Assembly: GCA_016789925.1 (NCBI GenBank)
Contig: JAEUQD010000358.1
Span: 1 to 34,947 of the forward strand
DNA: 34,947 nt
Direction: 5' to 3'
From: Bryobacterales bacterium
GTDB lineage: Bacteria; Acidobacteriota; Terriglobia; Bryobacterales; Bryobacteraceae
Below are positions 9,257 through 15,896 of this stretch, one piece after another. Under the pieces are notes generated by a model. It had not been told where the DNA came from. It worked only from the letters and a program-made list of their open reading frames with translations, and did not search any database. Position numbers and translations under genes: made by a program. Numbering within the stretch: the stretch's first letter is position 1; each line of letters opens with the position of its first letter.

Positions 9257-9589
9257 CTACTTTCCATCGCAAAAATCGAACGCTTCAACAAGGCAGGCTT
9301 CCCCTTGAATACGGCGTCGCCAACCTGAGCGTAGCCTTGCGTTGCCGGAATTGTGCTGAAACGCCGACATGGATTGAATCGGTCGCGGTACCACGGGCAG
9401 GACGGGATGGAGAAATGGGTGGGTTGGGGAGTGATTGCAGATACTCTGATCACGCTGGGGGAGTGATTCCGGTCGCGGAGGTGGCGGCATGAGCAAGCAC
9501 GACCCCGCAGGAAGTGCGACGGCCACAAGGTGGGCGCAGTGCGGTCGGACTTCGGCCAATGGGGCAATTTCGAACATTCGATTTTCGCG
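9257..9589. other. non-coding stretch beside decayed transposase
   Basis: Nothing convincing is coded here. Minus-strand frames are continuations of the broken transposase frame without recognisable family sequence. The boundary of the mobile element could not be found. Confidence 0.5.
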
Positions 9590-10439
9590 CTTCCTCATGC
9601 GTTTGCACAGACTCCACCAGCAAATCGGAATCGGCAGGCTTCTGCGCGCCTTCGTGTCGCCGCCGAAGATCCGGGCCTTGGTCTGGCGGATCACCTGTTT
9701 GGTCCGCGCACTCATGGTGGCTATCTGCTGTAACAGAGGCCGCACCGCCGCTTGTTTGGACTTATTCAGTTCCGTGACCTGCTCGCGGACACGGCCGGCC
9801 TGATGGAGGATCTGCCGCGTCACCTTGAGGAGTGCTCTTTGCGCTGCTTCTCTCCTTCCGGTCCCGCACGCCGGCGGCCAGCCCGCCCACCGCCGCTTCC
9901 ACTTTCTTCATCAGCCGGGTCAACACGCGCGCCCCATCCCCCAACAAACTGCTGTCGGTCGGATAGTGAATGTTCGCTTCTACCACCGTGGTGTCCACGC
10001 GCATCCGCTGCCCCTTGACTGCCCCGGCTTGCTTGGCCATGGCCACAATTCGCTGATGGATCTGTCCACGACTTCCGGCTTGATCAGCTTGGCGATCGTG
10101 GCAATGACCTTGGCATCGGGCACGCGGGACAAGCCTACCCGCGCAAACTCCCGGCACACGATGTTGGCACGCACCTGGGTGCTCAGTTTCCTCGAAGCTC
10201 CAGTTGTTGGCGTCCTTGAGCACCAACATCCGCAGCACGACTTCCGCCGGCGTTTGCTTCCGGCCCCGCGTGCGACTTTGTCGCCACCGCTTTCCCTGGG
10301 CCTGGTAAACAGGGTCGATGAGATCCTCGTCCTCCAGGAGCCGGTCGGCCACCCGCATCCACGCGGGCCAAAGGTCGTCCACCTCACGCGTCCAGAACCC
10401 ATCGCAGAGGCTCATCTGTCCGTTGCGCCCTTGGACCAT
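9590..10439 (-). pseudogene. ISNCY-type transposase, frameshifted remnant
   Basis: The minus strand spells a transposase in pieces. An N-terminal part (from 10439, with TPAEVVLRMLVLKDANNWSF) breaks near 10190; the frame then shifts to one reading QVRANIVCREFARVGLS and VPDAKVIATIAKL, and returns to the first frame for IHQRIVAMAKQAGAV, MRVDTTVVEANIHYPTDS and LLGDGARVLTRLMKK. A third piece from about 9823 carries RQILHQAGRVREQV and TKQVIRQTKARIFGGDT. A further short match (SDLLVESVQTHEEA, about 9588-9634) is in another frame. The catalytic core after TKARIFGG is mostly deleted. VDTTVVEANIHYPTDS is characteristic of ISNCY-family transposases. Inactive. Confidence 0.8.
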
Positions 10440-10559
10440 GGCACATCGTAAAGCCAGTTAGCAAGCGGCGACCTCCCGAAGGTTGCTTTTTGCCCTTTCC
10501 GGCATGATTTGGAATCAATAACTTACAGATTCTAAAGGACATGGAGAAGACCAAGTCCC

Positions 10560-10938
10560 CCTCTCCGCACCAAGTTTCGGCCTGTAACTTCAATGAGTTA
10601 CAGGCCGATTTTCTTTGTGTGCCACAGTGCTTTTCCACGATCTTCGCGCTGTTCCCCAGCACGTCGGCGACTTCCTCGAACGTCGCACCCAACCCCAACA
10701 TCTTAGTCGCCAAAGTGTGACGGAAACGGTGTGCGTGGACGCCACTGACTTCGGACCGCCTAAACACTGCCGCCAGTGTCCGCTCGGCCCCGCCCACAAC
10801 GCACCGCCATGACATCGTCTGCTCGTTCCAGAAGAAGCACCGGTGGAGCCGAACCAGGATCTGCCCGTCATGAACCCGGTTCCGCTCGGGCGTTGCGACA
10901 TCCGAGATGGAAAGGGCAGTGTAGAACCTGCAGGACAC
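10560..10938 (-). pseudogene. tyrosine recombinase (phage-type integrase) C-terminal remnant
   Basis: The frame contains the C-terminal half of a tyrosine recombinase: HAHRFRHTLATKML (the His-x-x-Arg box), then FEEVADVLGNSAKIVEKHCG, where active enzymes have a catalytic Tyr in EKHY. Here that residue is Cys. Upstream, SISDVATPERNRVHDGQILV recalls the first arginine-box region, but the stretch between it and CFFWNEQTM is too short, suggesting an internal deletion, and the N-terminal DNA-binding domain is absent. It adjoins two other decayed mobile genes. The coordinates are approximate. Confidence 0.7.
10578..10607 (+). terminator. perfect 12-bp stem hairpin followed by T-rich tract
   Basis: CGGCCTGTAACT (10578-10589) and AGTTACAGGCCG (10596-10607) form a perfect 12-bp stem with a 6-nt loop, followed on the plus strand by ATTTTCTTT. 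This resembles a rho-independent terminator reading rightwards, but no intact plus-strand gene lies just upstream, and the site overlaps the 3' end of the integrase remnant. It could also be an end repeat of a lost element. Confidence 0.4.
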
Positions 10939-10954
10939 CGAGGTCTGTGAGGCG

Positions 10955-11270
10955 CTGCTCTACTTCGGTTGCGGGCACCGGGACAGTTTCGACACCGACA
11001 GTCTGATCGGCTTCCTCGAACAACTCAAGACGTTTTGTGGCCGGCCGCAAGGTCATTCTGGTTATGGACGCACTGCCCGCTCATCACAGCCAACTGATGA
11101 AGGACTACCTGTTCGAGCAAGGACACTGGCTGACCATCGAGTGGACGCCGGACACGCTCCCAACCTGAATCCCGCCGAATGCGCTTGGTACGACGTGAAA
11201 CGCCGTGAAATGGCCAGTCTCTGTCCAGATTGCATGGAGGAAGCCGTAGCCGGCTCCCGACGTTCCGACG
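10955..11270 (+). pseudogene. IS630-type transposase C-terminal remnant
   Basis: Three plus-strand frames together spell the C-terminal DDE region of an IS630-like transposase: DSFDTDSLIGFLEQLKTF in one frame, then KVILVMDALPAHHSQLM and DYLFEQGHWLTIEW in a second, which stops at 11168-11170, and LNPAECAWYDVKRREMASLC in the third. The D of VMDALPAHH and the E of NPAEC are the second and third catalytic positions typical of the family. At least two frameshifts and loss of the N-terminal half make it non-functional. Confidence 0.75.
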
Positions 11271-11465: not shown

Positions 11466-11471
11466 AGGAGG
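11466..11471 (+). promoter_or_regulatory. perfect Shine-Dalgarno deciding a TTG start
   Basis: AGGAGG lies 5 nt before the TTG at 11477 and fixes the kinase start at that non-ATG codon. No in-frame ATG occurs before the first membrane segment except within the protein at residue 27. Confidence 0.75.
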
Positions 11472-11476
11472 TTCAC

Positions 11477-13102
11477 TTGCGACAGGTCATCCGAGCAAAC
11501 ACGTCGGGGGTGGTCCAGACGGACTCAGCGGCAAAGCACACTCTCGCGCCGCAAATGGTGGAGGCTGCGGTCTCGCGCCTTGGTTGGATCAGCCTGATCT
11601 GCGCAGCGATAATCGGGTTCGCTGTTTATCTGGAAGGCCGTCTACAGCCGGAAGTGGGCGAACTCCTCAAAGACCCCAAACTCCTGAGTGTCCTTCTGTT
11701 CGTATTGCTGGCTGCATTCGGCATCAACGCGGTGGCGCGTTATCGTTTGCTCTCCCCGCTGGCGATCCTGAACCTTGGCCTTGCCTTCGAAATCGTAGTT
11801 GCCGCAGCGATCAGCTTTTCAGAAACCGCAATGCCCAGAACCTCTGATAGCCCGGTCCTCGGCGCGTCGAAGGTCGCACTGTGGATTGGGGTGGTTGGTT
11901 TGCTGATCCCAAACAAGCCGTGGATCAAATTCGTCACCGCACTCGCCTGCGCAACCTCATGGCCCCTTGCGTATGTCTTGAGCCTCTATCTGTATGGGTA
12001 CGATCCGCTCTCGTGGAATCGGCTGGTGATCTGGATCCACTTACCGTACGTGATGGCCTTCGTGAATTACGGAATCTCCAGGCGGATGTGGCACATGGAG
12101 AACGCCGTCCAGAAGGCGCGCGAGCTCGGTTCTTACGAGTTAGTTTCAATGATCGGCACGGGCGGCATGGGGGAGGTTTGGAGAGCGCGTCATCGCATGC
12201 TCGCGCGCGATGCGGCCATCAAGGTCATCCGTGCCGACCTGATGCTGCTGCAACCGGGCTACGAGTCGGATATCACGCGAAGGCGCTTTGCACAGGAAGC
12301 GCACGCGATAGCCTCGCTCCAATCCCCCCACACCGTCTACCTCTACGATTTCGGCATATCCGAGAACGGATCTTTTTACTATGTGATGGAACTCCTCGAC
12401 GGGATCAGCCTGCAAGCTCTGGTGGACAGATTCGGACCGCTGCCGGCGTCGCGGGTCATTCACGTTCTTCGACAGGTCTGCGATTCGCTGGAGGAGGCCC
12501 ATAGACGAGGTCTCGTCCATCGCGACATCAAGCCCAACAACCTTTTCGTGTGCATGGTCGGCATCGAGTACGACTTTTTGAAAGTGCTCGACTTCGGTCT
12601 GGTGAAGAATGTATCGCGAACGGAGACCCTGCAACTGACCGCACCTGGAGTGACGGCGGGCACGCCTGCGTACATGGCTCCAGAGGTCGCGCTGGGGGAG
12701 GAATCCATTGACGGGCGGACGGATATCTACGGTCTTGGATGCGTCGCGTACTTCCTACTCACGGGTTCTCCGGTCTTTAACGAAAAGACCGCCACCGCCA
12801 CAACAATGGCCCACGTGCAGAAAACGCCGGTACCACCTTCGCGCCGAAGCGAAGTCCCTATCCCGCCGCAACTTGAAAGTCTCGTGCTACGCTGCCTCGC
12901 AAAGCGACCCGAACTACGACCGCAGTCTGCCCTGGAACTGAGCCAGTTGCTTGCGGCGATCACCGACGTGCCGGAATGGACCCAGGAGAGCGCCGAGCGA
13001 TGGTGGCAGACCTATTTGCCCGTTTCGTGCGCGTACCGCACGGCGCGCCAACCCTGGCCAGCCGGAACGGACTGGGAGCAGCAGCATGCTCAAACAATTT
13101 AG
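11477..13102 (+). CDS. membrane-integrated Ser/Thr protein kinase (PknB-like catalytic domain)
   Basis: 541 residues with a TTG start. The N-terminal 200 residues hold about six hydrophobic segments (roughly 36-52, 68-86, 91-113, 131-145, 150-172, 183-200). The Hanks-type kinase domain follows at about 220-495: glycine loop GTGGMGEV (227-234), Lys249 in AIKV, HRDIKPNN with Asp350, DFG at 372-374, and GTPAYMAPE ending at 403. All key catalytic residues are present, so it should be active on the cytoplasmic side. The usual bacterial layout is kinase first and a single TM after it; here a polytopic domain comes first, perhaps as the sensor. The 3' end overlaps the transporter gene by 17 bp, suggesting translational coupling and a joint role. 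Confidence 0.93.
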   Translation: MRQVIRANTSGVVQTDSAAKHTLAPQMVEAAVSRLGWISLICAAIIGFAVYLEGRLQPEVGELLKDPKLLSVLLFVLLAAFGINAVARYRLLSPLAILNLGLAFEIVVAAAISFSETAMPRTSDSPVLGASKVALWIGVVGLLIPNKPWIKFVTALACATSWPLAYVLSLYLYGYDPLSWNRLVIWIHLPYVMAFVNYGISRRMWHMENAVQKARELGSYELVSMIGTGGMGEVWRARHRMLARDAAIKVIRADLMLLQPGYESDITRRRFAQEAHAIASLQSPHTVYLYDFGISENGSFYYVMELLDGISLQALVDRFGPLPASRVIHVLRQVCDSLEEAHRRGLVHRDIKPNNLFVCMVGIEYDFLKVLDFGLVKNVSRTETLQLTAPGVTAGTPAYMAPEVALGEESIDGRTDIYGLGCVAYFLLTGSPVFNEKTATATTMAHVQKTPVPPSRRSEVPIPPQLESLVLRCLAKRPELRPQSALELSQLLAAITDVPEWTQESAERWWQTYLPVSCAYRTARQPWPAGTDWEQQHAQTI

Positions 13103-15338
13103 CCCAGCCACAATGACCGCCATGGCGGGAGCCGCCCTGATGATAGCCCATCAGGTCGCCGGAAAGGCGGTTCGGGACTCATTTTTTCTTTCCAACTATC
13201 CGGCATCAGAGCTGCCGAAGATGATGATGGCCGCGGCAGCAGTGACCCTGGTGATGGTCCTTCTGTTTGCGCGAGCGATGGGGCGCTTAGGGCCGCAGCG
13301 GCTGGTTCCGGCGGGTTTTCTTCTCAGCATGATCGTGCACGGAGTCGAATACCGGATGATGCCCGGCAATCCGGCGCTCTGGTCCGTCCTGGTCTACTTC
13401 CACATAGTGGCTTTTGGCGCGATCCTCCTGTCCGGGTTCTGGTCGCTCATGTCGGAGTCATTCGATCCCCGGTCAGCCAAACATTTGTTCGGGCGCATCG
13501 CGGGCGCGGGAACGTTAGGTGGAATCACGGGCGGCCTGATGGCTGAACGGATCGCCGCGGCGTTCTCGCCTAACAGCGTCCTTCTTGTCCTGGCCGTCCT
13601 CCACATGCTCTGTTGCGGCGTGCTTGGGTTCGCCCAATTTTCGACATATGGACATCCAGGCCCTGAGCCGGAAAAAGCGATCTCTCCGAAGGAGTTGTTC
13701 CGGAAGGCTCCTTATCTCGGAGCGACCGCCATTCTGGTGTTGGCCGGGACTTCTTCGGCCGCGATTCTGGACTACCTATTCAAGGCGGGCGCCGGAGCCG
13801 CGATCGGGAGGGGCGCGCCACTGCTCCGGTTCTTCGCGATTTTCTACACTTGCACCCAGATCCTCACGTTTATCAGCCAGACGTTCCTGGCCCAACGATC
13901 CCTTCAGCGGTTTGGCATAGGACGCACGATCTCGGCCCTTCCGCTCGGGGTAGGAGGCGGCGCACTAGTCACCTTGCTGGCACCCATATTCCCGGTATTC
14001 ACATTGTTCCGCCTTTTCGAATCCAGCTTGCGAGGCTCGTTTTTCCGAGCAGGTTATGAAATCCTTTACACGCCGGTTCCGGCCGCGGAGAAGCGTGCCG
14101 CCAAGACCCTGATCGATGTCGGGTGCGACCGGGCCGGTGACGCGGTCGGCAGCGGGATCGTGCAGCTCATGCTCTGGTTTGGCCCTTCGTTCATTCCGTC
14201 GGGCCTGCTGGGCGCGATCATTGGTTTGACCATCACCGGGGCCTGGGCTGCCTCGAGGCTGGACACGGCGTATTCCGGCCTTGTCAAACAGCGTCTCATC
14301 GACCGGGCCGTGGAACTCGACTTCGATGAGATTCATGACTCAACCACTCGTAGCGCGATCGCCCCGGCGCCGGCTGCTAGAGCCGTGAGCACGGCGACGT
14401 TCCCGCCAGTTCAGGCCCAAGCTCCCGACAAAGTTGTGAAGGCGGTCGCCGAGCTGCGATCCGGTGACAGGGGCCGCGTTCTTGCGGCGCTTAGCGAGAT
14501 CGACAGATTGAGCCCTGTGATAGCCGCGCAACTGGTGTCGCTGCTTGCCTGGGATGAGGTCAGCGACGCGGTACGACGCGCGCTCCAATTGGATCCATCT
14601 GCAATTACCGGGGTCCTGACAGACCACCTCACGAACCGCGAAGATGTCGAGTTTGGCATTCGGCGACGAATCCCGCGCATCCTCGCGCTTTGCGATTCAC
14701 AGTTAGCGGTTCACGGTCTCCTCGCAGGATTAGAGGATCTTCGATTCGAAGTCCGATTCCAGTGCTCGCGCGCCTTGGACTCCTTGCTTCAGCGCAGGCC
14801 GGACCTCAAGGTCCCGGCTGAGGCCGTCTATGCCGCAGTCGAGCGGGAATTCCATGTCGCGCGCCCGATTCGAGACTCTCGCCGGCTGCTGGATACACGA
14901 GACGGGTCCGACCCCAATGCATTTCTCGATGAGATACTCCAGGAACGCGCGGATCAAACGTTGGAGCACATCTTCTCCCTTATCGCTTCAGTGCTGCCGC
15001 GAGAAGCGGTGAAGATCGCGTTTCGGGCCCTACATACCGACGATCCCGCGCTGCGGGGTTTAGCGGTCGAATATTTGGATAGCGTTCTACCGGACCATGT
15101 GAGAGAAGGCTTATGGGCGCTGACCGATACCAAGCCTCCGGCCCATGCGCAGGATTCCATCCAAGACCTGCTCGGCGAGTTGCTTTGCGCGCACGAATCG
15201 CTCTTATTGAAGATGAATGGCGGAAAGGCGCCCGAACGGCCGCAAGAAGATGTGCCGAGTCCGGCAGATGCCGACAGCGGATGCCGGCCTCTGCGTCACG
15301 ACGGGATCGCTGATCCGCAGCCAAACAGGCAGGTTTGA
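13086..15338 (+). CDS. ATP/ADP-translocase-like (NTT/MFS-like) transporter with HEAT-like C-terminal domain
   Basis: 750 residues from the ATG at 13086, preceded by GGGAG. The frame is open back to 12951 but that part overlaps the kinase and is unlike a transporter. The first 420 or so residues are polytopic, about 10-12 membrane helices, with patterns of the nucleotide-transporter/MFS-like superfamily (QVAGKAVRDSFFLSNY near the start, AKHLFGRIAGAGTLGG, and YTPVPAAEKRAAKTLIDVG). The C-terminal 300 residues are soluble, with helical repeats such as VRRALQLD and VRFQCSRALDSLL that resemble HEAT repeats. The substrate is unknown; nucleotide exchange is only one possibility for free-living bacteria. 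Overlap with the kinase gene suggests the pair acts together. Confidence 0.8.
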   Translation: MLKQFSPATMTAMAGAALMIAHQVAGKAVRDSFFLSNYPASELPKMMMAAAAVTLVMVLLFARAMGRLGPQRLVPAGFLLSMIVHGVEYRMMPGNPALWSVLVYFHIVAFGAILLSGFWSLMSESFDPRSAKHLFGRIAGAGTLGGITGGLMAERIAAAFSPNSVLLVLAVLHMLCCGVLGFAQFSTYGHPGPEPEKAISPKELFRKAPYLGATAILVLAGTSSAAILDYLFKAGAGAAIGRGAPLLRFFAIFYTCTQILTFISQTFLAQRSLQRFGIGRTISALPLGVGGGALVTLLAPIFPVFTLFRLFESSLRGSFFRAGYEILYTPVPAAEKRAAKTLIDVGCDRAGDAVGSGIVQLMLWFGPSFIPSGLLGAIIGLTITGAWAASRLDTAYSGLVKQRLIDRAVELDFDEIHDSTTRSAIAPAPAARAVSTATFPPVQAQAPDKVVKAVAELRSGDRGRVLAALSEIDRLSPVIAAQLVSLLAWDEVSDAVRRALQLDPSAITGVLTDHLTNREDVEFGIRRRIPRILALCDSQLAVHGLLAGLEDLRFEVRFQCSRALDSLLQRRPDLKVPAEAVYAAVEREFHVARPIRDSRRLLDTRDGSDPNAFLDEILQERADQTLEHIFSLIASVLPREAVKIAFRALHTDDPALRGLAVEYLDSVLPDHVREGLWALTDTKPPAHAQDSIQDLLGELLCAHESLLLKMNGGKAPERPQEDVPSPADADSGCRPLRHDGIADPQPNRQV

Positions 15339-15491: not shown

Positions 15492-15896
15492 ATGAAGCCA
15501 ATGCTACCAAAAAGAATATGTGACCTTGGTATCCTTAAAGTTTTCAATCGCTTCAAGTCGCAAGTGTCCCAACTCCTGCGGCAGATTTCGACACCGAATG
15601 TCGAAGAGGGAGTGTACCTCGATCTCGTACCTGAGGGTACGCAGCTCATCGTGGAGACTGTAAACCACCGGTATCTGCTTGAAGCTCGCGATGGATGTCA
15701 CGCACTGCTGAGTGGCCACCCAGAGCTCTGCCCCGAGCCCGTGTGCGGCAAGTTGTACGGTTCGAGATCGAGAACAGCCGCGATGATGCCCGGATTCATC
15801 GGACCGGGCCTTTGTCTTGTACTCCTGCATCCGAGTGGGCGCTTCATTCGTACATCGCACGTTCGCGAGGTTCGGAAGGTCAATTCGGCTCATTAG
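15492..15896 (+). CDS. hypothetical protein
   Basis: 134 residues (131 if the ATG at 15501 is used, which has AGG about 8 nt upstream). No signal peptide or membrane segment. A compact C-terminal region carries VPEGTQLIVETVNHRYLLE, a Cys-containing GHPELCPEPVCGKLYG and FIGPGLCLVLLHPSGRFI with the ending RTSHVREVRKV. I recognise this only as a pattern seen in small uncharacterised bacterial proteins; no function is known to me. It lies 150 bp after the transporter and 9 bp before the TetR gene and may be co-transcribed with the latter. Confidence 0.65.
   Translation: MKPMLPKRICDLGILKVFNRFKSQVSQLLRQISTPNVEEGVYLDLVPEGTQLIVETVNHRYLLEARDGCHALLSGHPELCPEPVCGKLYGSRSRTAAMMPGFIGPGLCLVLLHPSGRFIRTSHVREVRKVNSAH

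Follow-up and report, generated by a model that had tools for sequence, protein, structure and literature searches.

A polytopic Ser/Thr kinase gene coupled to an NTT-HEAT transporter gene in Acidobacteriota

NTT-HEAT and NTT-HEAT-cNBD fusions are widespread in free-living bacteria, where their function is unknown; some NTT-HEAT genes are directly followed by a gene for a cyclic-nucleotide-binding protein (Major, Embley and Williams 2017, PMC5381601). The locus considered here lies in the window, a 34,947-nucleotide stretch that is contig C64 of the 6.9-Mb draft genome G000 of a Bryobacterales bacterium. Here a gene for a polytopic Hanks-type Ser/Thr kinase and a gene for an NTT-HEAT transporter-like protein lie back to back on the plus strand. 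Like the NTT-HEATs of PMC5381601, the window transporter joins an NTT membrane domain to a C-terminal HEAT array; it differs from what is described there in its partner, a polytopic Ser/Thr kinase encoded directly upstream or, at other loci, directly downstream. It is about an even call that the two proteins form a single regulatory unit of the inner membrane.

Several other described systems resemble parts of the pair. The window transporter has the same fold as the plastid and chlamydial ATP/ADP translocases, AtNTT1 of Arabidopsis and CpNTT1 (PF03219), at 15–17% identity, but unlike these the NTT-HEATs carry a HEAT tail and have the AtNTT1 residues E245 and K527 replaced. The window kinase shares the catalytic fold and motifs of PknB-type Hanks kinases, yet it has six transmembrane (TM) helices before the kinase domain and, by hydropathy, no C-terminal TM helix. 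It does not classify as a PASTA kinase (PknB/Stk1), as it has no PASTA domain and scores 239 bits against NF033483, for which the cut-off is 450. In the Uhp system, UhpC activates UhpB (PMC4790336). UhpB/UhpC/UhpT is similar in layout only, with a polytopic kinase, an MFS-fold membrane partner and an MFS-fold paralogue; the Acidobacteriota system differs in having a Ser/Thr rather than a histidine kinase, in its HEAT tail and in its unrelated protein families, and no response regulator was seen. The first-pass annotation of this DNA had proposed a possible undescribed unit. One half of that unit, the NTT-HEAT fusion, was already known (PMC5381601). No report of the kinase–NTT pair was found in the open-licence literature, although one may exist elsewhere, and it is the kinase partnership that seems to be new.

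The pair and its parts, with positions in the window, are as follows.

11466–11471, + strand: Shine-Dalgarno sequence AGGAGG of the kinase gene, an exact match 5 nt 5' of the TTG
11477–13102, + strand: polytopic Hanks-type Ser/Thr kinase gene, 541 amino acids (aa); Pkinase E=1e-41; K249, HRD and DFG intact; AlphaFold (AF2) pLDDT 84
11549–12127, + strand: six-transmembrane N-terminal domain, residues 25–217, from AF2 helices
12128–12961, + strand: kinase catalytic domain, about residues 218–495, with a PknB-like fold (Pfam; Foldseek to PknB)
13086–13102, + strand: overlap of the two genes, 17 bp, from the transporter ATG at 13086 to the kinase stop at 13102
13086–15338, + strand: NTT-HEAT transporter-like gene, 750 aa; weak TLC/MFS Pfam matches; AtNTT1 profile E=1e-18; Foldseek to AtNTT1 and CpNTT1
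13104–14354, + strand: 12-helix NTT/MFS membrane domain, residues 7–423 (AF2; residue mapping to AtNTT1)
14430–15218, + strand: cytosolic HEAT-like repeat tail, residues 449–711 (AF2 pLDDT mostly >90; alphaRep/HEAT profile matches)

Conserved adjacency and co-inheritance

Scanned with the transporter alignment, GTDB contigs yielded 65 loci, to which loci from relatives were added; genome scans for transporter relatives return Acidobacteriota, Bryobacterales included. At 25 non-redundant NTT-HEAT loci the six-helix kinase gene immediately precedes the transporter gene on its own strand; the gaps are mostly between -4 and +45 bp, and 4-bp overlaps of the two genes are frequent. The window's own NTT clade (n=28, SH-aLRT 99) has the kinase directly upstream in 24 members, which is 24 of the 26 whose upstream DNA is readable. 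Of the remaining members, two are truncated by a contig end; in L066 the kinase lies 5.6 kb downstream, and L082 has no kinase. In a second Acidobacteriota clade of NTT-HEATs the six-helix kinase is directly downstream in five of six loci, three of which have a single-domain NTT after the kinase. The linkage has thus survived a change of gene order. In the kinase tree the linked kinases group as a single clade with 24 members (SH-aLRT 100), and the distance matrices of kinase and NTT-HEAT, compared without species-tree control, correlate with r=0.88 (0/5000 permutations).

The association can also be approached from either protein across 297 genomes of the phylum. With the kinase membrane domain as query, a close match was found in eight genomes, and in seven of these an NTT-HEAT gene adjoins; the remaining one, G255, has kinase and transporter on separate contigs, each of which breaks off at that point. 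With the transporter as query, a kinase gene adjoins it at about half of the near-subfamily loci. Two circumstances could favour a chance meeting of two common gene types: G000 is very kinase-rich, with 59 Pkinase matches in 6.9 Mb, and DNA resembling mobile-element debris lies 5' of the pair. Given the 59 matches, however, chance alone would place a kinase directly upstream at no more than roughly 1% of loci, and chance is refuted by the 24 of 26 readable loci, the mirrored trees and the second linked arrangement, which make it a vanishingly improbable account. Far from co-occurring only rarely, the two genes are therefore coupled, as had been claimed from the window alone. Judged from these comparisons, the pair has been kept together through long evolution in soil and freshwater Acidobacteria. 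One cultivable species that carries it is Edaphobacter aggregans (DSM 19364, locus L091).

The nearest relative of the window transporter is that of ‘Candidatus Sulfopaludibacter’, at 71% identity. Identity to L059, L060 and L061, which belong to another family, is 56–61%, against 46–50% to G005 and G012 of its own family. In both trees, kinase and transporter, the window pair is nearer to other-family pairs than to own-family pairs, a placement which would fit either joint transfer of the two genes or an old paralogy. Linkage to the kinase as a property common to all NTT-HEATs was rejected, as distant longer forms (about 900–1000 aa) have no family kinase adjoining at the loci examined. One distant NTT-HEAT locus, L051, does have a kinase, which falls outside the six-helix family. 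In the Gammaproteobacteria loci L107, L114 and L116, the NTT-HEAT gene is immediately preceded, on its own strand, by a gene for a single-domain NTT of ~420 aa, and there is no kinase; such paired NTTs may act together.

Architecture of the kinase and the transporter

Profile searches, fold prediction and Foldseek agree with the first-pass description of a Hanks kinase with about six TM segments, overlapping by 17 bp an NTT/MFS-like gene with a HEAT-like tail. The kinase start is the TTG at 11477, five bases 3' of AGGAGG (the 14-mer was absent from 100/100 shuffles), and two homologues share the start residue. Pfam Pkinase spans residues 220–483. The AlphaFold model, built on an alignment of 40 relatives, has membrane helices at residues 25–56, 67–89, 94–117, 132–143, 148–173 and 180–217, followed by the kinase domain (mean pLDDT 84), and Foldseek matches this domain to Mycobacterium tuberculosis PknB (TMt 0.90, 37% identity). 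The Hanks-type motifs AAIK, HRDIKPNN, DFG and APE are present, and nearly all linked kinases keep the catalytic K, HRD and DFG. Hydropathy, at a segment threshold of 1.25, gives four to six hydrophobic segments N-terminal to the kinase domain and none C-terminal to it in 40/40 family members, so the kinase domain should face the cytosol. By its mean identity of 34%, against 57% for the kinase domain, the membrane domain is the faster-evolving part. The TM-then-kinase order had been thought unusual, but it is not a novelty: G000 encodes two more kinases of the family and further ones are found elsewhere in the phylum, and several of these six-helix kinases have no NTT neighbour.

The long open reading frame (ORF) of the transporter starting at 12951 is over-extended, as homologues align from about 13086, where the ATG is the real start. 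Its MFS and TLC matches in Pfam are weak (TLC 16 bits, cut-off 21), and the subfamily as a whole scores weakly against TLC/TIGR00769. Against solved structures, the subfamily profile matches AtNTT1 (9j3j) at E=1e-18 and also chlamydial NTT1. The AlphaFold model (pLDDT 87) has 12 membrane helices and a helical repeat array at residues 449–711, and its top five Foldseek matches, at E of about 1e-8 to 1e-6, are all NTTs, with AtNTT1 (9j3m/9j3l/9j3j) the best, and Chlamydia pneumoniae NTT1 also among the top matches. By profile the tail resembles designed HEAT-like alphaRep proteins; Pfam gives no HEAT match in the window transporter itself. The profile and the predicted fold confirm the NTT-HEAT architecture, an NTT membrane domain followed by C-terminal HEAT repeats.

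Four residues of AtNTT1 are needed for ATP transport: K155, E245, E385 and K527 (PMC10654386, PMC4256464). These positions were mapped by a constant offset of 84, chain versus precursor, on which E245, E385 and K527 fall on Glu, Glu and Lys. In the NTT-HEAT alignment the E245 position is uncharged, mostly V/A/S/T, the K527 position is D in 42/47 and the E385 position is D in 47/47; K155 lies outside the alignment, and the invariant R30 may be its counterpart. As E245 and K527 are replaced and the set of four charged residues is incomplete, ordinary ATP/ADP exchange by the window transporter is unlikely. Other charged residues of the membrane domain, namely R30, D31, E124, D229, K336, R337, K340 and D344, are invariant, and the ligand is therefore still likely to be charged.

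The proposed membrane unit

The reading as a membrane regulatory unit draws on the tight coupling of the genes in both orders, on a cytosolic kinase beside a HEAT platform and on co-inheritance. The six-helix kinase and the NTT-HEAT would be translated together, which would bring the kinase domain alongside the HEAT tail on the cytosolic side, where the tail could serve as a docking and regulatory platform. Control of the kinase would most likely come from a signal at its own membrane domain and/or from the NTT domain. The kinase would then phosphorylate the NTT-HEAT on its cytosolic part, or else one of its binding partners, and so set how active the NTT-type transporter is; the substrate carried would be a phosphorylated anion, nucleotide-like or other. 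The first-pass annotation had likewise suggested phosphorylation of the transporter by the kinase, or control in the opposite direction; the contact, the phosphorylation, the direction of control and the substrate are all inferred.

Five points weigh against this proposal. The correlation of distances, being made without a species-tree control, is a sign of co-inheritance and not of interface coevolution. Some kinase-less NTT-HEAT genes of the same genome and family overlap an FAA hydrolase gene (G000:C515 and G001; loci L042 and L043) or an MscS channel gene (G032; L041:6649–7572), so the coupled partner is exchangeable. The six-helix domain matches nothing known, neither in Pfam nor, for its fold, among the Foldseek matches listed. 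The D-x-T-T motif in the linker, which the window transporter also has, does not follow the presence of the kinase: as a kinase-specific phosphosite (D-x-T-T-x-S/T) it was rejected, since many paired members lack it and kinase-less Gammaproteobacteria have it, and a simple linker phosphosite is thus not supported. Finally, gene linkage can mean shared expression only.

On this last account kinase and transporter would belong to one regulon, for example of phosphate or nucleotide stress, and adjoin without contact. It gains from the genes found 3' of the pair in relatives, often on the opposite strand, as this block resembles a pathway cluster: NTT2, a single-domain NTT; an exported protein, X; Y, an Omp85-superfamily barrel (PF01103); and Z, a calcineurin-like phosphoesterase. 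Tight translational coupling is, however, specific to kinase and transporter and holds in either order, whereas the surrounding block varies; in the window and in L062, its nearest relative, the pair has no Omp85 or exported-protein genes alongside. Co-expression alone is accordingly judged unlikely.

The main rival is a Uhp-like transceptor, in which the NTT-HEAT binds a ligand from outside, either a nucleotide or a phosphorylated metabolite, and thereby activates the kinase, NTT2 being the transporter. Its layout of polytopic kinase, MFS-fold receptor and MFS-fold paralogous transporter is that of UhpB/UhpC/UhpT, and the loss of charge at E245 and the change of K527 to D in most NTT-HEATs would suit a receptor. 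In many relatives NTT2 is a neighbour of the pair, and some loci read NTT-HEAT, kinase, NTT2. K527 is, however, missing from most NTT2 proteins as well, and the invariant charged residues R30, D31, E124, D229, K336, R337 and K340 of the NTT-HEAT fit a working transporter; moreover NTT2 is absent near the window pair, the single-domain NTT of that genome lying on another contig. The transceptor is a tentative possibility, and a kinase that controls the NTT-HEAT or its bound partners is favoured over it.

For NTT-HEATs, a partner kinase conserved across much of Acidobacteriota offers a concrete and testable handle on function. Conversely, orphan kinases are very numerous in this phylum, and for this one the target or trigger is probably encoded next door.

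The wider block and the flanks of the pair

Protein X has ~530 aa, an apparent signal peptide and no significant Pfam match; its conserved motifs are VKFDP, HDDSRxxNxLD and DFGSTLG. HipA_2 gives weak matches in 13/36 members (best E 0.0036), and a deep profile of X gave no significant match among solved structures; an exported kinase-like (HipA-like) fold is plausible from the sequence. Examples are:

L040:10788–12440, - strand: X
L066:10449–12038, + strand: X
L233 (G000:C747):10750–12405: X

X occurs in 49/297 genomes, and an NTT match is found in 41/49 genomes with X against 49/248 without it, an odds ratio of 21 that is uncorrected for relatedness. The window genome carries an X–Y pair on a different contig, at one end of C747. 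The window has neither X nor Y, and the block is therefore context rather than part of the finding.

A broader scheme would make the kinase pair the cytosolic control part of an Acidobacteriota envelope system. NTTs would carry nucleotide across the inner membrane to the exported HipA-like X, acting with the Omp85 barrel and the phosphoesterase, and the six-helix kinase would govern phosphorylation outside the cytoplasm. This is speculative and rather improbable; were it true, it would parallel the supply of ATP to kinases of the eukaryotic secretory pathway, and NTTs that supply nucleotides outside the cytoplasm would bear on periplasmic kinase chemistry in bacteria.

On the 3' side of the pair, the transporter is followed by a 134-aa ORF without a Pfam match (15492–15896) and then by a TetR regulator. 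The 5' flank, 9257–11230, holds transposase-like and integrase-like fragments that look like degraded mobile-element debris, an assignment made by eye only for about 9760–11230; a weak Phage_integrase match lies at 10384–10938 and a broken IS-type reading frame around 11020–11200.

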